NCBI GenBank assembly: GCA_023053545.1
Contig: JAKZAN010000005.1
Location: forward strand, 992,001 to 1,056,000
Source of the DNA: Lepidurus packardi
Lineage: Eukaryota > Arthropoda > Branchiopoda > Notostraca > Triopsidae
DNA length: 64,000 nucleotides
Direction: 5' to 3'
Shown here: in pieces, positions 1,201 to 39,593 of the stretch
How positions within the stretch are numbered: the stretch's first letter is position 1
Layout of the letters: every line of letters starts with the position of its first letter
Position numbers and translations under genes: made by a program
Notes under the pieces: generated by a model
Database searches by the model: none
Told to the model about the DNA's origin: nothing
Seen by the model: the letters and a program-made list of their open reading frames with translations, nothing else

Positions 1201-2149
1201 CGACCTTCTCGGTCCCCAGAGTAATATTCAGGTAAAAGGCCAGAAAATGAAAGGGTACATTCGCAAACCTCCCAGTGCAGTTCAAAAAAGGTCACAACGG
1301 TTTACAAAGCGCGTAATTTAAATCTATTGCTTTAAACTATGTGAGCTTAAAATAAAAGATGAATTAACTAGGTCAAAGCACAACACGTATACACATTATA
1401 GACTAGTTCGCGTTACCCAGGTTGGACCACGAGGAGGCAGTCTATTTTGCAACCCATACATAGGTGTTTTATAGTATACAGGTTTAACCCCATATACCAT
1501 AAAATACCCATGTATATTAATGTCTATATGTGTTGTTAGGACTATCTATGTCTATATACGAGTTATCCATTACATTGGTACTTTACAACTATTCCTAAAT
1601 GTTACTAACTTTTGCAAGTTTAGTATTTTTCTTAACAAGTTTAACTACGGCTCTTTCTGCTACAGCTACATTTTCTTCTTTAAGTGTATAGTAAATCCTA
1701 ACTCGAACGAACAAATTAAAAAAATAATCAACTGGAAAAGCTTCGCATGTCAATTCAGATAAACCAAGGAGTTTAAGTTTAGCAACAATAACACTAACTA
1801 TCCCTGGCTCACAAAAGGATTCCTGATAAGTTTCCTGAAAAACGGACTCACACTTAAAAAGATAGTGAATAGAGGCCCTAGGACCCTACGTCAGCCACAA
1901 ACTCCCTAGAGTGCCGGAGAGAAAGGTCACCAGTCCCCCGTTTTGTGAATGTTTTGTTCTCTTTTCGAACCTTTTTATAGTAGATTTGGAATGCCTACTT
2001 CTGGGGTAGGATGGGCAAGTCTGTGAATCCATCCCTCCTATGTTCCTTGTTACCCCCACATCCTCTTGAGACCGAGAAAATCGTGTTAATCCCTTTACAT
2101 TGGAAGATACCCCCAGTTACCATACTGTGAAACCTTTATACTGTGGTTA

Positions 2150-6250: not shown

Positions 6251-6467
6251 GGCCACGGTGTGGTGTAAGTAGTTGACTATTTTCCGTCAAAAGATGTCGC
6301 TGGCATAGACCCCTATATCCTGAGAATGCTACAAATAAATATACACCTATGACTAATTTCTCGCACTAGAGGTCTGCACACAATAATTAGGGTAAAGTAT
6401 GGGGTAAAGGGAAAAGGTCAGCTTATGCTAAGGAACTTCCTCCCTATGTTCGCTTGAGAATGGGAGG

Positions 6468-6740
6468 GAATACCAATTTAACTGATAATCCAATTTGCAT
6501 GCGCTAGACGTGTAAGTATTTAGAAATGGCGAAATAAACAATTATATTTTCTTAGAAAATTGTCATTACCATTCTTTATGGTCAAGATTGACACCGTCGT
6601 TTTATGTATAAAATACCAATGGAAGGGATAATCCAATTTCCAAGCTTTAGAAGTGTACTTAGAAATTCCGAACTAAATAATACTATTTTCCTAGAAAATT
6701 GCCATTACCGTGCTTTACACTCAAGGTTACCACCCATCTT
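6468..6740. repeat. Subterminal direct repeat in transposon 1
   Basis: Two units, from about 6469 and about 6612, share ATACCAAT, GATAATCCAATTT, TTCTTAGAAAATTG-type phrases and a CATTACC block in the same order, at perhaps 75 percent identity. They may be transposase-binding sites, as subterminal repeats are in other transposons. Confidence 0.5.
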
Positions 6741-7527
6741 ATCGCTCGTCTTAGCGATCACTGTTTATATTCTAGCTCTAGTCAACTAATAGCCTTCGAA
6801 GATCTTGCTCTTTTGGGCTTTCGTTCGAAATGTTGATGACCGGGTTAAAATTGCCATGTTAAACTGCTATGGCCCTGCTGAAAAGTGTAATGCACGCTGA
6901 TGATCATCTTGATGCCGATAGGTCATTGATCGCTAAATTACATCTTGCAATAGTTTTTCCTGCTTGGCCCCAGCGTGAAACTCTGGAATGTAAAATAAGT
7001 TACTGAATATTTTAGCTTTTAGACATGAATCAGTCAAAGGAAGTAACCAATAAAATAGATTCCAAATTATTGAGGATCAGTATTTTGCAACAACCTTCAC
7101 TTTCGATCTCAAATTCACTACAACAACAAGCTTTGATTATATCCCAACGGAATAACTGGAAACGCATAATTTTTCTACTGAGGGGAATTCAATATTTCTC
7201 AAAACTGAAGGACTTTTTAATTTGTAGTGTTTGTGTAATTTGCCAAAATGCGATTTCAAAGAACATTCACTTTTACTATTTCACTAACTTTTCGGAATAT
7301 TGTTATGAAACTTTGACTAGAACGCATTCCGTAATCAGAGATCAGCATCAGCGGTTCTTGATTTCGGTGTTACCAATTTCTTGAATAGTTTCAAACATTA
7401 TAGCATTGTAGTTGATCATTTAAAACGACAACGAAAAAGTTCATTACTGCGTTCGTGAGTCGTACAAACATTGAGTGGCGCAAGTTATTACGTTATTTGT
7501 TTTTTGCATCGGTACTACTGACTGAAA

Positions 7528-10320
7528 ATGGCAAGAAAAAAAATACTGTCATCCTGTAGCAAACAGAAGCTGAGAGGCGTTGCTTTGAAGAACCGAAGAG
7601 AAAAGCTTTGCCAAGAACACCCAGCAGATCCAGATGAAGTATCGCCAGGTGAAAGTTTAAAATTACAAACTTCTTGTACTGTAAGTTCCAGACCTGCTAT
7701 AGAATCAGTTTCCATTGAGCCTATAGCTAGCACTAGCTCCGTTGTTTCCAATAGCTTTGCTAGTTTAGATCTCCTTGACAAAGAAACGAACTGTCTCGAA
7801 GATGACGAAATTTCACGCATTCTTAAAGAACAGGCAGAAATTGATGCTGTAGAACTTAACATTGAACCTGTTTGGTATTCGCAACCAAAAATGAAGAAAG
7901 AAGTTGACGGACTTTGATTAGTAAATGTTTGCCATTTCTTGTCAGGGCACAATAAGATTTTTGAACACTACGATATTTGTCGCTCACCCATTCCTTTCCA
8001 AAAGGAAGTTAAGAAAGGTTTTTGGAGCAGTTTTGCTTTCAAATGTGAGAAATGCCAGGATAATATTTTTATAACAACTGACCAGGTTTCTCCATATGCG
8101 CATGTAAGGCCTACCCAAAAGAACATTTCGCCGCATGCTGCACGCTTGAGGTCAGATAAAGTTCAGGCTCTGTCCGTCAACACAAAAATTGCAATGGGAA
8201 TTATGCAAATTGGTGCAGCCCATAACCACTTAGAAGAATTCATGGCAACCGTTGGCGTTCCTTCAATGAACCGCAACTCATTTATTGAACAGGAACGTAA
8301 AGTTGGGAAAATATGGGAGAAAGAGGCAAAGCTAGAAATAGAAAATGCAGGGAAGGAAGAACGTGAATCGGCTGAACGGGCTGAACAAATCGACGAAGAC
8401 AACACGCCGTACATAACCGTAATTGGCGATGGTGGGTGGTCTCAAAGGAGCCACGGCACCAGGTATACAGCCAAGTCAGGTGTGGGCGTAATCATTGGTG
8501 CGCGGACCAAGAAAATATTGCATGTAGGAGTTCGTAACAAATATTGTTCCATTTGTCAACAAGCTAAGAACAAACAAGTGGATCCTCGCCCCCACGAATG
8601 TTTCAAAAACTGGGACGGTCCGTCTACAGCAATGGAAAGCTCCATTATTGTAGATGGTTTTAGAGATGCTGAAGACAAGCACGGCTTGCGCTATCGAACG
8701 TTTATTGGTGACGGGGACTCTTCGACCCATAATGCTATCCTCGCTAATACTCCTCGCACTCAGAAAACCGTCCGCAAGCTTGAGTGTGCAAATCATGTAA
8801 TGAAAAATTTCACGAAAGCTCGGTATAAACTTCAGGGCAAAACCCCTGCCAATAAGAAAATTTTGACCCCTCTTTTGATACGTAAACTTGGCGGTGCAGC
8901 ACGAGGTGCAATCAATCGTAACGCTAGATTGAAGGGAAATGTTGATCAACTTCGTTCATTTCTGAGCAATGGTCCCAGACATTATCTTTTGAATGACCAC
9001 ACTTTTTGCACTGCGGCCAGCGATGGTGGAAAGGGTTGTAAGTCAGTGGGTCAGAAATTGAAACAGAATGTACACACTGCTTTGTACACTGAAGTAATGG
9101 AGATCTTGTTGGGCTGTAGGAGCAAAGCTGCAGGTTTGCTTACCGAAGTTACGACTAACCTCGCAGAGCGGTTTATGTCCATGGTGGCTAAATTCTCTGG
9201 TGGCAAGCAATTTCTCCGCTCGCAAAGGGGATCTTATAATTACCGATGTTATGGTGCTGTTCTAGAATATCACCATGGACGAAGTTTTCAGGCTGCTATT
9301 TTGAAAAAATATGGTTCCTGTAGCATTGCTACAGAAAATTTTGCCAAGAATTGTCACGACGATATTCTTTCGTTCAGAAATCGGTTAGAGAAGTCACGGG
9401 AAAATAATGCTATTGCTTCTCCACGACAAGCTTTGACTCGGAGGCGCGAAGCTTTCGCAGGACCTGATTGCCATTATGGAAAGCCAGATTTGCCAGAGGA
9501 GATCTTACGTGACAGGTGCAAACTGATTGTTGCTCAACAGCAGCTTAGCAGGGAGCAGATTGTGGCCCTTGAAGAGAAAACTAGAGAGCAGGCTGATTCT
9601 TCTGATTGGTTTGATGCAAGGGCGAGTAGACTGACCGCTTCTCACTTTGGCAAAGTGTGTAAGCTCAGAGATACAACTTTGCGTCAAAATACATTGCAAG
9701 CAATACTAAGTCCTAATAACATTAGCACAGAAGGTACTCGTTACGGACAGGCCAATGAGCCAAATGCCAGGAAAGACTACGAAATAAAGAACTGTGTGAC
9801 TGTAGTCCCATCAGGGTTTTGGGTGCATCCTGAGCTAGGTTACCTGGGAGCATCTCCCGACGGCCTTGTAGGTGACGAAGGACTTATCGAGATAAAGTGT
9901 CCCCTAAAGGCAGAGACAGCGTCTTCCTTCATTGAATTTGTAAAATCAAAACCGAAGGACTGCTTTCTAGAGTTAGTTGATGGTGACAAACTGAGATTGA
10001 AGAGAACGCACAATCACTACTACCAAGTTACAGGACAGCTTGCCGTGACCGGAAGAGCGTGGTGTGATTTTGTTGCATGGACAAAGAACAGTTTGCAAGT
10101 TGAGCGGATTGTGTTTGACAGGGTTTTTTGGGAAGACACAATGCTTCCAAAACTCAGAGCCTTTTTCATGGACTGTATGTTGCTTGAACTTGCAGACCCG
10201 CGGATGGGACAAAAGTTGGCTCCGCGGGAGCCGCCTTACGTTTTGGCCGCTATAGAGGCTAAAAAGGTCGCAGACCAAACAAACGGTAAAAAGGCCGCAA
10301 AGAGACCACTTGATCAGTGA
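7528..10320 (+). pseudogene. DDE transposase-YqaJ nuclease fusion, one nonsense codon
   Basis: One frame of 931 codons from the ATG at 7528, broken only by TGA at 7915-7917; the stretch after it (7939-10320, 793 aa) is intact. Aligned with the sister gene at 22325-19731, the TGA sits where that copy has Arg, so a CGA to TGA change is likely. Counting from 7939: a CEKC zinc pair near 36-39; first catalytic Asp 164 in GDGGW; CSIC at 203-206; second acidic site 258-260 in GDGDSST; CANH 283-286; likely catalytic Glu in EVTTN (403) or AER (410). A PD-(D/E)XK nuclease of YqaJ type follows (about 557-725), with Asp641 in SPDG, Glu651 and Lys653 in EIKCP. The first part should cut and join element ends; the nuclease role is unknown. 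Confidence 0.8.
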
Positions 10321-10419
10321 TCTGATGCACATATTATGTTGGTCAAACATGCACATGGATTAAAATTATAAATGTACCGTGAGGTCAACTTATTGAAAGC
10401 TTATATGAAATGCACGTCA

Positions 10420-10710
10420 AAGCCTCTCGTGAGATGATTTCCTTCATGAAATCATTGAGTTCACCAATGAAAAACATCCGAGAGGTTGCTATCAAATATA
10501 AAATGCCACCGTGAAATGGTATCTTTTAAATATACCATTGAGCCAAGAGTTTTTTGCATCCGGTGATGACAATACTAACTAATGCCTGAGAGTAAAGGAT
10601 AGTTTGAGCCTCTCGTGAGATGTCAAATATAAAATGCCACCGTGAAATGGTATCTTTTAAATATACCATTGAGCTAAGAGTTACTTGCATCCGGTGATGA
10701 CAAAATTAGA
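10420..10710. repeat. Direct repeat downstream of transposase
   Basis: A block starting TCAAATATAAAATGCC occurs at about 10492 and 10623 (spacing about 131) and runs on through GCATCCGGTGATGACAA in both. A GCCTCTCGTGAGATG phrase precedes each. It lies in the 3' part of transposon 1 and is non-coding. Confidence 0.65.
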
Positions 10711-11502
10711 ACTGATGCCTAAGTAAAGCTAGTTTTCATTATTACAAACCAACACTTAAGGTAAGTTTCTTTACTAAATGTATGTATTTGTACTGTAAAT
10801 TTTCCAAATTTACACGCCAAGCAGCTAACTGCAGCTATACTTATAGTCTTAGCTTTCGTAACCAAGCCGGAAATCTTTTCACCTTTTCTAGACCCAACTT
10901 GGTTCGCTTTCTTGACCTCTTTCCCCTCTTTGCTAACAGGGGGAAAATGTTCGAGAAAAGCCATTCGGAGACAAAAAGAAAAGGGTAAAATGCCACAAGG
11001 TATTTGTGCCCTTGGGTTACTTTAGGCTCGAGCAAACCCAATTAGTGACTTGTCATATCCTTCCCCCTACTTTTACGGTATCTCCTTTTCATCCTCATTC
11101 TTGAGTTCTGCACAAGCTATGCAGTTTCCTGCCTGGTCGTTATTTTCTGAGTGGCAGCACAATTTCTCATCCGAATTTCATAAACTTTAGTACAACTTTC
11201 CAAGTAAACAGTAAGAGATAATTGAAAAATTCTTTCTTTAAAAATATCATAATAATAAACTCGAAAAATCTGGGTTCGGTTTTTTTTTCTATATCAATAT
11301 TTTAACATATTTTAATATGTTCTTCTACGTAAAAAATTTATGGAAGCCAAATATTAAAAACTAGCAACCCAGTTAAATTGAAAAAGAAATACCATACATT
11401 ACTGTCACAATACAATTTGATTATATTGCAAAGGGACTGAGAAAGGTGTAACTTAAGTTTGCCATGCTATAGCGCCATAAGGAGTTACACTACACCGTGG
11501 CC

Positions 11503-16740: not shown

Positions 16741-16840
16741 GGTCAGGGTTGAGTTCGAGTGTGGGTTCAAGAAGTGGGGTAAGTTTTTATCTTATTTTTT
16801 TTTGCTGAATACTAATAGTTTTAGTTTTTAATAAAAAAAG

Positions 16841-18326
16841 GCTTTTCAACTGGGTCCACTGCCGAAGACTATCTTCAATTGAAGCCTTTATGACGCTAAA
16901 CTCCGTCCACTTGATAAGAAGACAAAGATTCTTGTGAGTTGCAGTTTCATCTTTGCTGGCATGGTAATTTTTTTATTTGAATGAACTAGATTTTTTTTAT
17001 TAGTATCTGCCTTGTTAATCGCTAATGGGCTTCAGATAGAGCTCCGTTGTGCTAATATTCCGTATTGGGGAAATACCACGAGCAGGTCTGCTCATTTTCC
17101 GCGTGTTTTACAATATAGCAACGGAGCTTCCCCGGCGTTGGGTGGGCGTGGTTCGAGTGCATTGTTTGGCCCGTGAAGGACCAGCAGGCAAGGGACCGTA
17201 TTTCGTGTATGGTGTTGAAGAGTAAGTTTTAAGTTCTTAATTTTTTTAAATTCTATACTAATGTTGTTTTTATTCAAAGAGACTAATTGGATCTCCTGCA
17301 TTGTTACTGGACATAATCTTTAAAGATGTCTATCCCTTTATGTCGTTAAATTCCGTCCATTCTTATAAGGAAATAGAGATTCTTGTGAGCTGCAGTTATC
17401 AGTTTCATCAGATTCATGTTGGTGTTCATTACGCAAGGTATTTTTTTTTTAAATTTGAATGAATTCGATTTTTTTTTAATGTTCGCCTTTTCCTTGGCTA
17501 ATAGGCTTGAGATAGAGCTCCATGGTGCTAATATTCTGTATTGCGAAAATGAGCGAGCAGGCCCGCTCATTTTCCGCGTGTTAGGTCTTACATGGTTAGC
17601 AAAGGAGCTTCTCTGGTGGACGTGGTTCGAGGGCATTGAGGAGCCCGTGAAGAACCAGCAGGCAAGGGACGGTATCTCGTGTGTGGTGTTGAAGAGGTGG
17701 AGTAAGTTTTCAATTCTTGTTTTCTAAATTTTATACTGAGGATGTTTTGATTCAAATAGGCTATCAATTGGATCTCCTGCGTTATTACTCAATATTCTCT
17801 TCAATGACAATGCCTTTATGTCGTTAAATTCCGGCCGTTAGAAGAAAACCAAGATTCGTGTGACCTGCACTCGAATTCAACAGTTGCTACCTTGGCGTTC
17901 ACCACTGGAGGTAAAGTATTTTAATTTGAACGAACTAGTCTTTAAATTAATATTTGCTTGGTCCCAGGCTGTTATGGGCACAGTATAGAGGTTTCACAGT
18001 ATGCTAACAGGGCTATCTTCCAATGTTAAGGTTTTCTGACGACCTTCTCGGTCCCCAGAGTAATATTCAGGTAAAAGGCCAGAAAATGAAAGGGTACATT
18101 CGCAAACCTCCCAGTGCAGTTCAAAAAAGGTCACAACGGTTTACAAAGCGCGTAATTTAAATCTATTGCTTTAAACTATGTGAGCTTAAAATAAAAGATG
18201 AATTAACTAGGTCAAAGCACAACACGTATACACATTATAGACTAGTTCGCGTTACCCAGGTTGGACCACGAGGAGGCAGTCTATTTTGCAACCCATACAT
18301 AGGTGTTTTATAGTATACAGGTTTAA
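16841..18326. repeat. Segmental duplication, copy B left part
   Basis: Matches 1-1487 with only isolated substitutions seen by eye (for example TTATTCGC versus TTAATCGC near 17018). It ends at TTAA 18323-18326, where transposon 2 is inserted. Confidence 0.9.
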
Positions 18327-18369
18327 GGCCCCGGTATACAGAACCCTCTTATGGGTGAATAACATGGGG

Positions 18370-18649
18370 AAATTCGGGGGCTGATATCTTAAAAACTACT
18401 CAACCGATTAAAATGATACATATAACAAAAAATCGATCAGAAAAACATCTACTGCAAGTGATCGAGTTTTTTTTAAAAAATTATGTAATTTAACTAAAAA
18501 ATTGAAGGCAAAGTTTTGGGAATTTCTAAATAACCGAAAAATTGGAAATCGGGCCATCACTTGCAGTAGATATTTTATTTCTAGATTTTTTACAATTTAA
18601 AAAAAATACATCGGACGAGTAGTTTTTATGAAATCAGCCCCCGAATTTT
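18370..18649. repeat. Imperfect palindrome near the left end of transposon 2
   Basis: AAATTCGGGGGCTGAT at 18370 and AAAACTACTC at about 18391 recur inverted at about 18617-18649; an inner pair, CATCTACTGCAAGTGAT and ATCACTTGCAGTAGAT, is also inverted. It may be a subterminal structure or a nested small foldback element. Confidence 0.65.
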
Positions 18650-19730
18650 AATAATTTAGCTCCCTATACAGTGGTGCCAATTTGCCATGTGGGGGAATAG
18701 GAAAAGTTTGCAGTCGGTGCAAGAAAACAGCGGGCTATATGAATGAAGGATTGGCCTTGAAGGAAGGGATAGTTGATAATGCCTATGGCACGCCTTCTCT
18801 ACAAAACATTTCCCCTAGAATTCTCTTTTCTTCAAGAACAACCGTTGACGGCCGACGTCACCACTCCTCAGGGTGGGACTTACTTTGTAAACAATAACGA
18901 AGCTACACGAGTTTTCAGTTAAAAAAATTCATTCAGTTTTACAATAAAAGTTTTCTAATTAAGGGTGGATCACATTGGTATGCAGTTCCAGTTGCAAGTA
19001 GTCTAATAGTAATATAAAATAGTTGCTTCCCTTGACACATTTTCGATAAAGCAAGAAAAAGACTCATTTCCAAAATTATAGTTCCATAAGCCTAACGATG
19101 GGATATAAGAAGAAATCTGCCATTCTTTTGACGTGGAGTTGGGCATCTTCTAAACTTACGTCTCAATTGTACGCCCGATTGAAATATGTGTCTTTCTAGT
19201 GGGTTTGTGTAGATAATGTTGACACTATGACAAGACATGAATTAAATAATTTTTTATTACTAAAATGAGAAAAAATAACTAGGCTTACCACAAGTAGTTC
19301 GCAAAACAGCATTGCGCTTATCATTTAAAAAAATATTCGACGTGAACTACGCATCTAGCATCCCAGTGACCAAACTTCTTCACATTTTACAGGTGTGAGC
19401 CAAACTCAATTGACTTATATGTTGAACGTAGATATTATAAGATTTCCTGCCGCACGCCTTTATATTCTTTGTAACCCTGTTGAAGCGAATTGTTTAAAAA
19501 AAATACTCATTACAGAGGTGATTCGCCAAAGGCATTAGTTGACAACCTGTAATATAAAATATTTATTACGACCACGTAATGATTTTGCGTTCACAGTACC
19601 AGTAAAACGTGCTAAAAGATCGAACATATGTGTTCTTTATTTACAGTGACATAATAAACGTAATTACATTGGGAAAAAATAAAGTAGCGTCAAAAGTTTG
19701 CATTTAGACATGAAATACGAAAATGATGTC

Positions 19731-22700
19731 TCATTTTCTTTTTTTTCTGTTTTCCTTTCCCTTTTTTTGTCTATTGGCCTGGACTTTCGTTCTTCGTGAG
19801 ATAGCGTCTAACACAAACTGGGGCTCGCGAGGATTTTCGCTTCGTTGTAGCCGTGAGTCCGCAAGTTCAGGTAGGAAGCTGTCGTCAAAGAAGCGTTTCA
19901 GTTTGGGAAACATGTCTTTGCTCCAAAAGTCTCTATCCCGTTTGATTCTTTCGACATGCATGTCATTTGGACACCATACAACAAAATCACACCACTGTCT
20001 ACCAGTAACTTCAAGTTGTCCTTGAATTTGGTAGTAGTAGTGGTGGTTCTTGTTGATCCTTAGCTTGCGGTTTTCGCCAGGCAGTAGTCCAATTGACTGT
20101 TTCTTTTCGGAAATAACGAAGTCATAAAGGTTTTCCGCGTTTTTTGCACTGCTTGGGCACTTGATCTCAATCAAGCCATCCTTTTCGACTACACCATCGG
20201 GAGATGCACCCAAGTAGCCGTATTCAGGGTGTACCCATAGCCCGGAAGGTTGGACAGTAACTTTTTTTAAGTTTTCGTACGCTTTCCTCGCTTCAGGTTC
20301 TTTACACTTGCCGTACTCTGTAGCTTCTGAAGTCCAGCTGGACGGGAGCATAATTGCTTTCAAAACATTTTTGCGAGGAGTAGAATCCCGCAATTTACAA
20401 ACCTTCCCGAATAACGAGGCAGTTACTCTGTTTCGTCTACCTTCTATCCACTCAGGGCAACTTCCCTGGGCGCGGGTCTTTTCTTCCAGTGACACAATTT
20501 CTTCTGATGTAAGCTGCAGAAGATGACGTATTCGATCTGCTTCTCTTTCAAGAGAATCAGGGTCCAAGTCTGTGTTTCCGTAATGAAGGTCCAAACCTCC
20601 AGAAGGCTCTCCACCCTGAACAACATCAGCAGAAACTGCTGTGTTTTGCCGTTCTTGAGACGATCTAGAATAACGCTCTCTTCCTGCTCTGGTGCTTGCA
20701 AGGTGTTTTAACTCAAATGCGTCAAGCACAGGAGAAGTAACTTTATATTTCTTTAAAATGGGAACATGAAATCCTCTCCCATAAAGGAAATTCAACACAG
20801 CACCATAGCAGCGGTGCGTGTACGCTCCCCTTTGCGAGCGAAGAATTTGCTTTCCGCCAACAATTTTGGCAACACTAGACATGAACCTCTCTGCTGCGTT
20901 TGTAGTCACCTCTTCTAACAAATTGTGACTTTTCTTTCTCACGTAATCAAGTGCTGCACAAACTTCACGGTAGAGGTTCGGATCTATCTTGCTTATCTTG
21001 TTTTGTCCAGCAAACTCACAGCCCTTCTTCCCGGGCAAGGGTTTCTCGCAAGATCGGTGGTCCCCAAGTAAGTAATGCTTCGGACCATTGTCCAAGGCCT
21101 TGCAGAGGTCCTCAGCGGTACCCTTATTTCGCGCATTTCTTTTTATCGCACCTCGGGCAGCACGTGTAAGTTTCGAAATAAGGGACTTCACGAGTACCCT
21201 TCTGTACTTGATGTTTTTGGCCTGAATCAAGTAAAGCTTCTTTGTGTAATTCTTGATTACGTGATTGGCGCATTCGATTTTTTTGGGAAGCTTCTGACTT
21301 CTAGGCGTAGTTGCCAAGATTTTATTGAAAGTCGAAGAATCTCCGTCCCCAATAAAATGAGAAATACGTACCTTATACTTTTTTTCACATTCTCTTATTC
21401 CTTTGCTCAGGATGTCCGCTTCCATAGCTGTGGAGGGACCGTCCCAGTTTTTAAAACAATGATGGGGTGTTGGCGCTTGTTGTAAACGGGCAGCTCTGGT
21501 ACAAACCGAACAAAACTTGTTGCGAGTGTCAACGTATAGTACTTTGTTTGTATATGCACCAATTAGCACACCCACGCCAGATTTTGCTGTATAGCGGGTT
21601 CCGTGACTTCGTTGGGACCATCCACCGTCACCGATAACGGTGATCAGTGGGAACCCTTCGTCATCAACGTCGCCTGCAGCTATAGCAGCTTCTATCTCTT
21701 CTTCCATCGCTTCACGCGTTGCTTCTTCTACTTCTTTGTGCCAAATTTCACCAACGGAGTGCTCCTTCTTACAAAATGTTTTTTTAGTCATGCAAGGTAC
21801 ACTAATGACTGAGCAAAGTTCCTCTAAAACATGATGCCCAGCACCCACCGCTACCAATCCCCAAGTCATTAGAGTGTTTATGGATAAAAATTTCTTGTTA
21901 GGTGGCAAAATTATATCCTCTTCGTCATCAGATGTAGCCATCCTTTTCTTCGGCTTAGTCATTTTTCTGAAGCCTCTCTCTGAATCAATATACCACTCAG
22001 TTTGACATGCATCGCACCGTAGAAATAATGCGGTGAAAAAACCTTTCCTCAATTCTCTGCGAAAAATTAACCTACCTTTGCATGATTCGCCATGAGTCAA
22101 GAATACTTGTGCTGTAAGCTGGACGACATGCCCTAAGTCAACTATTCTTCTGCCTTTCACCCCACGCAACAACTCAGGTTGACTGAAAGCAGCTTCCTCT
22201 ATATTCAGCTGAACTGCTTCAGTTTCCGCCTGGTCAAAACTTGCAGAAGTAATTTCGTCAGATAATAAATCTTCATCATTACTTCGTTCAGCCACAGGGC
22301 TACTTTGTTCAGTAATGGCGTTCGCCTAGGATAATGGAGTTAGCGTTATGAATTTCATGGGATTGACTAGTACTAGTCACTAAAATCACTCACCTGGCTA
22401 TACTGTTTTTTCTCATCTACAATTATCCGTTCAAGTTTCACCCCACGCAACAACTCAGGTTGACTGAAAGCACCTTTCTCTATATTCAGCTGAACTGCTT
22501 CAGTTTCCGCCTGATGGTCAAAACTTGCCGAAGTAATTTCGTCAGATAATAAATCTTCATCATTACTTCGTTCAGCCACAGGGCTACTTTGTTCAGTAAT
22601 GCCGTTCGCCTAGGAGAATGGAGTTAGCGTTATGAATTTCAAGGGATTGACTAGTACTCAGTAAGTCACTAATCACTAACCTGGTTATACTGTTTTTTCT

Positions 22701-22803
22701 CCTCTACAATTATCCGTTCAAGTTTTTCACGTTGAATACGGAGGTACTCACGGGGATTTTTTTTCTTCCTCTTGAAATGGCCCGAATTTCTCTTAGAACC
22801 CAT
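19731..22803 (-). CDS. Transposase-YqaJ nuclease fusion, three exons
   Basis: Proposed exons are 22803-22681 (basic start MGSKRNSGHFKRKKKN), 22609-22394 and 22325-19731; the introns of 71 and 68 bases have GT...AG ends and preserve frame, giving about 977 aa. Counting from 22295: CDAC zinc pair near 94-97, first Asp 223 in GDGGW, CSVC at 262-265, acidic pair 317/319 in GDGDSST, CANH 342-345, Glu of EEVTTN about 461-462. The YqaJ-type PD-(D/E)XK nuclease covers about 614-790, with Asp700 in SPDG, Glu710 and Lys712 in EIKCP, and a basic tail. No stop or frame break is visible. The first domain should excise and insert the element at TTAA. The nuclease may process ends or repair intermediates, which is inference. 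Splicing is predicted, not observed. Confidence 0.8.
22326..22681 (-). repeat. Tandem duplication spanning an exon-intron-exon junction
   Basis: The exon 1 tail (KLERIIVEEKKQYNQ), intron and exon 2 head (ERSNDEDLLSDEITSASFD to LLRGVK) are repeated. The middle exon therefore begins like exon 3 and ends like exon 1 (KLERIIVDEKKQYSQ). Both donors (GTTAGT and GTGAGT) and both acceptors (CCTAG) are intact. The unit is about 215-290 bases. Confidence 0.75.
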
Positions 22804-23223
22804 CTCAGAATAAATAGAAAAACCAAGTCACATGCGTTTTCGCGTACTGACGAATAAAGATTGTTTAGGCAAGAGATTCTTTTGATAAAACCCTTTCCTA
22901 TATAACGCGTCTGTCCTCGCCTTTGTAGTTTACCCATTCTTTTATTGCCTGACGGGGAGAAAAGACTAGTGAAAGAATAAATGGATAAATAGTAATAAAA
23001 GGGTCATCGAGTTGACGGTATTTGGCTTGACCTCAGGTTACAAGGGAGAGTCATTTTCTGTAAGTAGCCGAAATAAAGTTACCCATTACATTAGCAGGCT
23101 ACGCGCAGTCTAGCAGTGACTACTTAGCGTCAGTGTTTTTTTAATTATCTTCATTGATTATTGGTACGTAATTTTCATTATGTTTAGTTTAGTGAAATTA
23201 TTTTAGAGTATTTATCAATAGGG

Positions 23224-23754
23224 ATGGATCCGTTTATGCGGCAGTTTGCAGAAAATCTAATGGGTAACGCCAGATTGCTGCTAATTCGGGAGGAAGAAGA
23301 GCGAGGAAGAAGCGGAGTAAGCAGAGGCCGCAGTATTCAGGGTTATGTAAATTACCGTGATCGACGCGATTTTACGCACCCCTATAATGGCCGTGCTCGG
23401 GTATCGCAGCACGGCAGAATCAGGCCGGAGGTACCGCAGGCTACAAACTTTGCACCGCGAGGCGCGAATCCGCGTTTCTTGGAGGAAAATGACAATACTA
23501 GGGCTTATACAAGGAACCAAAGAAGACGCGAGAGACGTCAACAAGTAGATGTTGACATGGAAAACTTCTTCAGGGATCTAGGTCGCCATATCTCTGACGG
23601 AAACATTGATTTGCCTGACAACATTCGCTCTTTTTACATGTTGCAAGCGCATCTCACTCCCGAAAACGGAAGCAACGGCGTAAGAGCTCCTCCTGATCAG
23701 GAATTTCGACAGATGTCCATTAACGAGAATGAAGAACAAAAGAAAATGGAATAA
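23224..23754 (+). CDS. Second gene of transposon 2, unknown function
   Basis: A 176-aa intact frame starts at the ATG at 23224, 420 bases from and divergent to the transposase gene, so the two may share a promoter region. The product is highly charged: an EEEERGRSG stretch early, an Arg-rich stretch NQRRRERRQQ near residues 97-106, and an acidic C-terminus with no membrane segment or signal peptide. I do not recognise a domain. Its place inside the TIRs makes it a candidate accessory protein of transposition, such as a nucleic-acid-binding partner, but that is inference. I found no equivalent in transposon 1. Confidence 0.55.
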   Translation: MDPFMRQFAENLMGNARLLLIREEEERGRSGVSRGRSIQGYVNYRDRRDFTHPYNGRARVSQHGRIRPEVPQATNFAPRGANPRFLEENDNTRAYTRNQRRRERRQQVDVDMENFFRDLGRHISDGNIDLPDNIRSFYMLQAHLTPENGSNGVRAPPDQEFRQMSINENEEQKKME

Positions 23755-24302
23755 CAATTCAATTGTACTCAGAAAAATAATCTTCTGAAGTGGTGGAATA
23801 CAAGTAGATTAGATGGGATAAATCGTTGTTTTGTTGAAGAAACTACTGTTTTTAGAACACCCAGAAACTTATTTATTCAATAAATTAAGCAAGGGGACGC
23901 TCTAAAGTATGCTTCCTCATGCAAGTATAATTAATTGTTTAGCCAACAAGTTCAGGTTCTTTTATTACTCAATAATATAAACTTGAAAAATCATATAACT
24001 GGTTAATAGATATAAAATTGATAACAGAAAAGGAAAGAAAGTACCATGTATTTAGTATAAACATAAATATCCGTAATAAAATCATTATTTCATGTCATGT
24101 TTACGCTTTTTTCCGCTACTGCAGCAAACCGTATGGTAATATCTGATATAAAATGCAAGGGGGCGTAGCCTTCATACGGGGTTTCTATTTGACTAGTACG
24201 CCATCTGTTGTTAGCCACGCTAACATTGCCTATCCTCTAGGGAAGCAGCGGTGTCCCCATCTATTATCGGAAAAAATCCTGGAACATGTGTATACCGGGG
24301 CC

Positions 24303-25436
24303 TTAACCCCATATACCATAAAATACCCATGTATATTAATGTCTATATGTGTTGTTAGGACTATCTATGTCTATATACGAGTTATCCATTACATTGGTAC
24401 TTTACAACTATTCCTAAATGTTACTAACTTTTGCAAGTTTAGTATTTTTCTTAACAAGTTTAACTACGGCTCTTTCTGCTACAGCTACATTTTCTTCTTT
24501 AAGTGTATAGTAAATCCTAACTCGAACGAACAAATTAAAAAAATAATCAACTGGAAAAGCTTCGCATGTCAATTCAGATAAACCAAGGAGTTTAAGTTTA
24601 GCAACAATAACACTAACTATCCCTGGCTCACAAAAGGATTCCTGATAAGTTTCCTGAAAAACGGACTCACACTTAAAAAGATAGTGAATAGAGGCCCTAG
24701 GACCCTACGTCAGCCACAAACTCCCTAGAGTGCCGGAGAGAAAGGTCACCAGTCCCCCGTTTTGTGAATGTTTTGTTCTCTTTTCGAACCTTTTTATAGT
24801 AGATTTGGAATGCCTACTTCTGGGGTAGGATGGGCAAGTCTGTGAATCCATCCCTCCTATGTTCCTTGTTACCCCCACATCCTCTTGAGACCGAGAAAAT
24901 CGTGTTAATCCCTTTACATTGGAAGATACCCCCAGTTACCATACTGTGAAACCTTTATACTGTGGTTATGGGCTTCATATGGAGCTCCGTATAGAAGTAC
25001 GGTGAGCTGGTCCGCTCGTTTGCGATGATTTTTTGAAGCTTAGCTTGTTCCTTTGATAGTCCATCTTTGTTCCGAAGAGGTTCAGTAGGTTTTTTTTATT
25101 TGTTCAGTGAGACTTTGTTAAAATGTAATTGCTTTGTTCAATTAGATTGCGCATTGGTCAAGACAAGCCTGTCGTATGGTGTGCGATGCTTTCCCTCCTC
25201 CCATCCCGCTCAGCCTAACTTTAGCCCTGGCCTTGCATCATCCTTTGGAGAAGAAGAAAAGACCCGCAACTTTAATCCGCTAAGCTGATATTCGGCTACT
25301 TGGAGGTAGCTAATTCACCTCTTGTGGGAATCAGGAGAACCAGAAGGAACAGGTATGCCGGAGTGAAAGTGTTGTGGCTGGTTAGGTCTTTTGCCGCAAC
25401 TTTTTGCTTCCTGGGGGGAGAAAGTCTTCGTTGTTG
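24303..25436. repeat. Segmental duplication, copy B right part
   Basis: Matches 1484-2616 nearly exactly, with one extra G in the G-run near 25413. It ends at 25436, where copy A meets BEL/Pao sequence; copy B continues with further module-family sequence (TAGGTCTTGAATGGC). Confidence 0.9.
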
Positions 25437-38101: not shown

Positions 38102-39593
38102 CAGAGCCGGATTAACCTTTTGTGGGCCCTGGCGCAAGTTATATTAATAGGCCCCTTCCGTACTTTTAAATTTGACTCAAAACTGGAGGACACGTAGTCG
38201 TTTTTTATGTGGAAATAAAAAACGACTACGTGATGAAATTGTGGAAATACAATTTCATTATTTACATGTTTCTTCGCCGCGCTTTCGCAGAGGCAAATAC
38301 ATTAATAATATCATCAAAATCGAGTGAAGAAACAATGTCACTCTCAATGCTCATCAGCGTGAGGTTTACAAAACGATCTTGGGTCATCGAGGAACGTAGT
38401 ACACTCTTGATTCGCTTCATGTGGCTGAACGATCTTTCCCCTGTGCAGTTTGATACTGGAAGTGTCAGGTAGATGCGCAGAATGACGAAGACATTTGCGA
38501 ACGCCGTTTGCAAAGCATGCTCTCGGATGATATTAAGCATTCGTGTTGGACTACACGGGGAATCGGGCATTGGCAAAAATGACCGAAGAAATAAGCGCCA
38601 GTGCTCCCATTCTTCCTTCAAATCGGCAGAAATATCGTTAGGATACATTTCAATGGCCTTCTGCAGTGAGGACGCAATACCGTCAGCATCAGTCTCAATG
38701 TAATTGAGGAAGCGAAAGCTGGAATCGACATTGGCATATGCCGCAATTCTCTTTTGTAAGTCTCCAATGAACAAGTCAATAATCACGAGAAACGTTTGGA
38801 TGCGGAATTGATTTTTGCTGTTGAAAATGACAGTCGATGCATTGCCGTCATCCGCATATCTTGTGGGGAATCGCTGGCGTTTTTCTTTGAAGTCAGAGGT
38901 GCCACACAAGGATGCTGCAGCGACGCAGAACTCCTCAAAATGATTTCTTTGCTCTGCCACATAGTCTGCAAGTGACTTTAACAGAGCGACCGCCAAGCAT
39001 AAATCAATCGATTGTGACTGAAGACGCTTGCTGGTTTGATTTGTCCTCTGGAGTACAACATTCCAAAATACTGCCATAAGAGCCGTCTCCAACGTTTCCA
39101 TCGTCTTATATAAGGACCTGGCTGTGACCTTAGCATCAGCCTTCTGATCAGGGTCGTTTGCAATTTTCTCGAGAACACGGTGATATATATGGTAGTGCGC
39201 GACAAGGCTCTTTGTAGCGTCGGCACGTGCTGACCACCTTGTTTCACTCAAGCTTTTAGGTAAGCATATTCGTTCTTCTAAGCCTGCCCCTTCCGCCATA
39301 AATGTTTTCAGAAGGCCCCAGCGATAGGTTGAAGCTGAGAGGACAACATATAATTGCTCAAGAAATCCGAAGAAGGAAATCGCATTCACACAGAGCGCTA
39401 CCTATACTAGCTACTTGCCATACCGCCCCCCTGCATATTGTATACCGATACAGCAGTTAGCGGGGACACACACACGCTCACTCACTCATAAAAAATAGGC
39501 ATTAAATTTATTTGCACGCATGGTTTGGTGGGCCCCTGAAGCCTGTGGGCCCGGCGCACTTGCGCCACTTGCGCCATTGTTAATATGGCCCTG
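38102..39593 (-). mobile_element. hAT transposon remnant, 8-bp TSD
   Basis: The ends are CAGAGCCGGATTAAC and the complement of CAGGGCCATATTAAC, typical of hAT elements. Both sides carry the perfect 8-base duplication GCTAATAC (38094-38101 and 39594-39601). The interior encodes only the C-terminal part of a transposase, so this 1,492-bp copy is non-autonomous. Confidence 0.9.
38262..39389 (-). pseudogene. hAT transposase, C-terminal part (ZMYM1-like)
   Basis: A 375-aa open frame. An SETRWSARADA motif lies near residues 47-57, where many animal hAT proteins have RWxxR. A long helical region follows, and a C-terminal hAT dimerisation block TLPVSNCTGERSFSHMKRIK begins near residue 309, then LRSSMTQDRF and LMSIE. 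The N-terminal zinc finger and the first catalytic Asp region are missing; full-length relatives are about twice as long. It lies wholly inside the 38102-39593 TIRs. The open frame could still be translated, but it cannot be a complete enzyme. Confidence 0.8.

Follow-up and report, generated by a model that had tools for sequence, protein, structure and literature searches.

The window, as we call the whole stretch of 64,000 nucleotides of Lepidurus packardi DNA analysed here, contains at 18327..24302, on the minus strand, a complete KolobokE-type DNA transposon of 5,976 bp, recognised by its terminal inverted repeats (TIRs) with flanking TTAA, by 14 paired copies in the genome and by empty sites. 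Almost certainly, it is a young and probably autonomous element of KolobokE, a lineage within the TTAA-specific Kolobok transposons. Its TIRs are perfect over 14 bp (the left one, GGCCCCGGTATACA, at 18327..18340 on the plus strand and the right one at 24289..24302 on the minus strand), and they are bordered by TTAA target site duplications at 18323..18326 and 24303..24306, which correspond to one TTAA at the empty site. A search with the exact TIR 14-mer through the assembly from which the window comes (344 contigs, 108.6 Mb) found it 14 times in forward and 15 times in reverse orientation, while the same 14-mer read backwards gave 0 matches. Since this control gave no match and TTAA adjoins 29/29 TIR ends genome-wide, chance TIRs were ruled out; an assembly artefact was rejected as well, the 14 loci having separate flanks. 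The 29 ends were tallied as 14 TIR pairs and a single end (on C46) that lacks an exact partner, because the flank of the latter is identical to that of the C8 copy; the C46 end probably represents the C8 locus a second time, on a redundant contig. With the terminal 300 bp as DNA query, the same places were recovered (14 left and 15 right ends, 99-100% identity), and the left-end search also returned the copies' own palindrome, described below. An earlier sequence-only reading had seen here an apparently intact TTAA transposon and had looked to further copies with the same termini as a check; the 14 pairs bear it out on both counts.

The transposase-nuclease gene lies on the minus strand and consists, in the predicted splice model, of exon 1 (22681..22803, 41 aa, basic, starting with MGSKR), exon 2 (22394..22609, 72 aa) and exon 3 (19731..22325, 864 codons plus stop). 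The two GT-AG introns are 71 and 68 bp long and the product has 41 + 72 + 864 = 977 aa, the size that had been proposed from the sequence alone; MGSK is likewise the N terminus of the mussel homologs P0037 and P0040. All the motifs listed in that reading (GDGGW, GDGDSS, CANH, EVTTN, SPDG and EIKCP) are located within the single 864-codon open frame, and its claim of a transposase fused to a YqaJ-type nuclease is confirmed by Pfam. Residues 58-428 of the frame (21042..22154, minus strand) match the Mutator/Kolobok-like DDE transposase PF20700 with an E value of 5e-74, the third acidic residue, E479, being beyond this match, and residues 625-777 (19995..20453, minus strand) match the YqaJ/lambda-exonuclease-like nuclease domain PF09588 with an E value of 9.4e-20; Viral_alk_exo was also matched (E 8.4e-7). 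The RNase-H fold expected for the first half is present in the structural model, with ISCth4 and Hermes as the nearest solved folds.

Conservation was assessed in an alignment with 37 hand-picked of the 47 two-domain homologs described below, the remaining 10 being checked at key residues only. Gaps set aside, D233 is kept in 35/36 sequences and D327, C352, H355 and E479 in 38/38; the protein thus has the arrangement of the Kolobok superfamily, a DDE triad whose second D and E enclose a C/DxxH motif. A second zinc finger of CCHC type, with C272, C275, H288 and C290, follows the first catalytic D and is invariant in 38/38; it is a trait of KolobokE common to KolobokP, KolobokD, Kolobok5 and a few solitary families. 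Another zinc finger lies between CxxH and the last E; H417, H423 and C426 are present in 38/38, while the fourth column holds Cys in 37/38 and Pro in the element's own protein, where a Cys at 436 (by eye) may act as substitute fourth ligand. In the accessible sections of PMC9587614, the third Cys of this KolobokE finger is given as extremely conserved and the others as variable. The catalytic and 5'-phosphate-pocket residues of lambda Exo are kept in the element's nuclease domain, and the nuclease catalytic residues are kept in 48 two-domain proteins and in 22/22 open reading frames (ORFs) of the element's own genome.

The class assignment was weighed against three other groups. MuDR/Mutator was rejected despite the Pfam name of PF20700, since the target duplication is the 4-bp TTAA and that of MuDR/Mutator is about 9 bp. 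Membership in ISL2EU was rejected because the element is without a DDE_Tnp_4-type transposase and a separate YqaJ ORF, and piggyBac because Pfam at E values up to 1 gives only Mutator, YqaJ and Viral_alk_exo. The termini read GG...CC, that is 5'-RR and YY-3', as in the Kolobok superfamily and unlike piggyBac (PMC9587614, accessible sections).

Ten copies, including that of the window, were fetched in one piece. These whole copies are more than 99.4% alike, and the nine others differ from the window copy by 2-7 substitutions each; four of the nine also carry a deletion and one an insert of ~650 bp. The 864-codon frame is kept in 8/10 whole copies and broken in the other two by a 2-bp and a 1-bp deletion, respectively. 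Later inserts are present at five loci (C6:8765041, C4:2546418, C5:12080754, C6:3443199 and C8:89393), one of them among the ten whole copies. Two similar nested inserts of ~11.5 kb, starting with GGGTTGGCGT, were seen in L020/L021 and L027/L028, and a nested TIR element of ~650 bp at L017:5649-6300 has 42 exact ends in the genome. The copy at C6:8765041 (L017) seems to interrupt a host exon, short-chain dehydrogenase-like (GGIDVLVNNAA by eye, then GTAAGT).

For the empty-site test, the sequences on either side of each of the 14 pairs were fused through a single TTAA and used as queries. Contiguous empty sites were found in the genome for 6/14 copies, window copy included (4/11 copies with 40 of 823 candidates scored, and 2/3 in a separate search), and a seventh copy (C1b) gave a 92% match across the junction, within the window. 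The empty target site of the window copy lies at 1338..1633, in a repeat copy that agrees with the joined flanks over all of its 296 bp (100%) and holds a single TTAA at 1484-1487; the repeat around it is common to 16840-18326 and 24303-25417, with two mismatches. These empty sites with a single TTAA show that insertion duplicated TTAA.

Exon 2 belongs to a tandem duplication that takes in, besides it, the last part of exon 1, the intron and the first part of exon 3; GT-AG ends and frame are intact in both units. The 284-bp unit (exon plus intron, 22246..22529) is absent from 2/10 whole copies (C2 and C5a), which probably lost it. As the units are only ~94% alike, against >99.4% for the whole copies, the exon seems to have been duplicated before the copies spread.

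The fusion is shared by many homologs. In a search that scored the 8000 candidates sharing most words, both domains were present in 47 of the 89 homologs found, among others in stick insect, tick, beetle, mussel, coral and brine shrimp. In the genome, counts of PF20700 and YqaJ matches are lower bounds; families were read at the fetched loci, which do not include, for instance, C3:2212668 and C4:1477362. YqaJ is found just downstream in an equal-length, i.e. the same, frame in 38/39 PF20700 frames of at least 800 codons, so that the outcome named as refuting in the sequence-only reading, two domains always in separate genes, did not occur; the exception, C1:2638367, has a stop in its frame and a YqaJ match 586 bp further on in a shorter frame. 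On these lower-bound totals, YqaJ lies within 6 kb downstream of 61/68 PF20700 matches, and 26/80 YqaJ matches are not the nearest downstream of any PF20700 match. Trees and distance correlation were computed from 48 rows, with own-genome copies cut to three and without rows shorter than 200 residues in the transposase or 120 residues in the nuclease. Transposase and nuclease distances correlate at 0.479, a value reached by 0/2000 permutations. Several clades recur in both domain trees, and the three sampled families of the genome group together as a single clade in each (100/100 and 100/99 support). The fusion is real, but it does not lack a description, since it defines the KolobokE lineage in Kojima & Bao 2022 (PMC9587614, accessible sections). 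New is the family that the element represents; its lineage was already known.

What is specific to this family is a second ORF, a left subterminal palindrome and the duplicated exon. The second gene of the sequence-only reading is a putative Arg-rich ORF of 177 aa (23221..23754, plus strand; ATG at 23221, 188 codons open), divergent from the transposase gene, with AATAAA near it at 23879-23884 and open in 15/15 places found. It gave no Pfam match and no homolog in the protein database and was found only in the present family, with no detectable match in the window's second KolobokE family. The palindrome (18370..18648) has arms at 18370-18462 and 18556-18648 (93 nt, 76%); as DNA it is predicted to form a very stable hairpin (z -10.4, reached by 0/100 shuffles). 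An Rfam search gave 0 matches at the gathering cut-off. The left terminal 69 bp, running into the palindrome, are 83% like a terminus at C8:137425, C46:199178 and C2:5653814, where, at C8, TTAA adjoins after one extra base.

The second KolobokE family is represented in the window at 6251..11502 on the plus strand (5,252 bp, TIR GGCCACGGTGTRGTGTAA, TTAA on both sides). Its open frame, 7918-10320, is preceded by an in-frame TGA at 7915-7917 (region 7522-10320). The 800-codon frame is at the identical offset in seven fetched copies (L034, L044-L047, L049 and L051; L044 is the window copy), so copies with the stop seem to have gone on multiplying, be it with help in trans, by readthrough or from a start further downstream. 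Outside the transposase gene, the longest non-overlapping ATG frame has 119 aa (7016-7381). Between families, synonymous distance (dS) is saturated and only nonsynonymous distance (dN) can be compared; it is 0.36-0.41 in the nuclease and 0.29-0.43 in the transposase. Elsewhere in the window, 27273-63725 holds many retrotransposon-like frames, plus a hAT-like frame at 38262-39401 (by eye).

As to what the fused nuclease does, we propose that the DDE half would bind the TIRs and cut and join at TTAA, and that the C-terminal half would be a catalytically active lambda-Exo-type exonuclease that needs a 5' phosphate and degrades double-stranded DNA in the 5'-to-3' direction. Cleavage at TTAA by a DDE transposase would expose 5' phosphates on the donor ends. 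Such ends being the substrate of a lambda-type exonuclease, the fusion would bring the nuclease to its substrate. Delivered to the break by the transposase, it would resect the 5' strands there, most likely at the donor-site ends, and the gap would then be copied from a full-length template (sister or homolog) instead of being end-joined, by which the donor element would be restored. For the mechanism as a whole, resection of 5' strands favouring templated repair, our confidence is tentative, somewhat short of an even chance. A repair-steering role, which the sequence-only reading had raised, is plausible; in the open-licence literature, as far as accessible, no published test of it was found, nor any described function of the KolobokE nuclease (subscription papers being mostly outside this scope).

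Since templated repair would restore a full-length donor, we took scarcity of deletion derivatives as support for resection. In a scan for exact TIR matches of two KolobokE families and one control family, the 32 pairs of the KolobokE families included no short TIR-paired derivative, the shortest pair measuring 5,111 bp and 10/74 exact ends being unpaired, while 17/18 pairs of the control family, whose TIR was found inside the C6b copy, were 405-1,134 bp long and one was 10,166 bp.

Several observations weigh against donor resection. Youth or a founder effect could account for the missing deletion derivatives, no excision footprint was seen, and the trees of the two domains disagree in their deep branches. 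Furthermore, in family A, to which the window's L044 belongs, L044 and L039 differ in the nuclease by 13.5 nonsynonymous to 1.5 synonymous changes and in the transposase by 5 to 11. L033, L035, L044 and L029, each set against L039, have nonsynonymous-to-synonymous ratios of 0.11-0.16 in the transposase and 1.8-2.6 in the nuclease, the latter with 1.5-2.5 silent changes. This excess of amino-acid change is contrary to the prediction of close recent constraint; selection, recombination or drift may be its cause. The nuclease ratio is 1.4 for L036 against L039 and against L041, and 0.42 and 0.28 for L033 and L044 against L036, respectively; the close pairs L037-L039, L044-L045 and L053-L057 have too few changes for a ratio. 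The changes form a patch of mostly amino-acid-changing substitutions in codons ~580-835, which separates L037 and L039-L041 from L036, L033 and L044; L036 and L039, almost identical in their transposase halves, differ in it. A further objection also bears on a rival explanation: the nearest solved fold of the transposase, ISCth4, belongs to a copy-out/paste-in enzyme (PMC7780238), a pathway that can do without a resected donor break.

If the element moved by copy-out/paste-in like the IS256 family, a circular copy would be replicated out, the donor would stay whole and the nuclease would act only in trimming the intermediate's flanking or flap DNA; full-length copies only would be expected here too. 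Kojima & Bao made a similar comparison for KolobokP footprints (PMC9587614, accessible sections). We regard this route as possible, though rather unlikely. A little less probable still, in our judgement, is that the nuclease trims short 5' flaps or tails of the integration product or the excised ends, with no effect on the choice of donor repair. The kept 5'-phosphate pocket fits such trimming, and accessible sections of the literature hold parallels in the KolobokD DnaQ-type nuclease, proposed to degrade intermediates from their 3' ends (Kojima & Bao, PMC9587614), and in Dada's DnaQ-like exonuclease, suggested to process cleaved 3' ends (PMC3706591); however, lambda Exo is described as processive (PMC7496540), which fits resection better. 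That the nuclease domain is a passenger which the element tolerates, serving in DNA binding or regulation, with movement independent of its catalysis, would agree with the family A excess and with Kolobok lineages that encode the transposase alone (PMC9587614, accessible sections), but is highly improbable given the kept catalytic residues, the similar between-family dN of both domains (dS being saturated) and their co-inheritance.

Returning to donor resection, a more far-reaching version, which we consider doubtful, is that the fused lambda-type exonuclease steers repair, donor resection forcing templated restoration, so that transposition would be net replicative and leave no internally deleted copies; by analogy with phage exonuclease-annealase pairs, the Arg-rich second ORF might then be an annealing or strand-binding partner. 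If true, this would explain both why only long TIR-paired copies were found and the lasting linkage of the two domains. Transposons have recruited nucleases repeatedly, and the question posed by this family is whether the choice among host repair routes at the donor site can lie with the transposon. Being young, with near-identical intact copies, known ends and many empty sites, it offers a practical system for testing the nuclease's part in that repair.

Compared with known systems, the modelled nuclease shares fold and active site, including the 5'-phosphate pocket, with lambda exonuclease, LHK-Exo and YqaJ, which to our knowledge are stand-alone and not fused to a transposase. The modelled transposase shares the overall fold of the catalytic region with ISCth4 (IS256 family) and Hermes (hAT), for which we know of no nuclease domain and whose target duplications are other than TTAA. 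The related DDE transposons KolobokD, KolobokP, KolobokH and fungal and brown-algal Dada have, in the accessible descriptions, also recruited a nuclease or helicase, but of DnaQ-type, His-Me finger or RecQ kind, whereas that of the present element is lambda-type. Kol0 has a second protein, KolX, with a cytoplasmic ballast fold; the second ORF of the present element gave, as noted, neither a Pfam match nor a homolog. ISL2EU (PHIS superfamily; PMC4482050, accessible sections) likewise combines a DDE transposon with a YqaJ exonuclease, but as a separate ORF and with another transposase, whereas the present element has a single fused frame. An ISL2EU-type element was seen in the genome at L059:327-2941, with a 620-aa DDE_Tnp_4 transposase (DDE_Tnp_4 + HTH_Tnp_4) and a separate 214-codon YqaJ frame on the opposite strand. 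Its YqaJ match belongs to the 26 that are not nearest downstream to a PF20700 match, and 8 YqaJ matches of the genome have a 214-codon frame. Closest of all is KolobokE itself, for which the accessible sections of PMC9587614 mention neither a second ORF nor a subterminal palindrome, whereas the present family has both.
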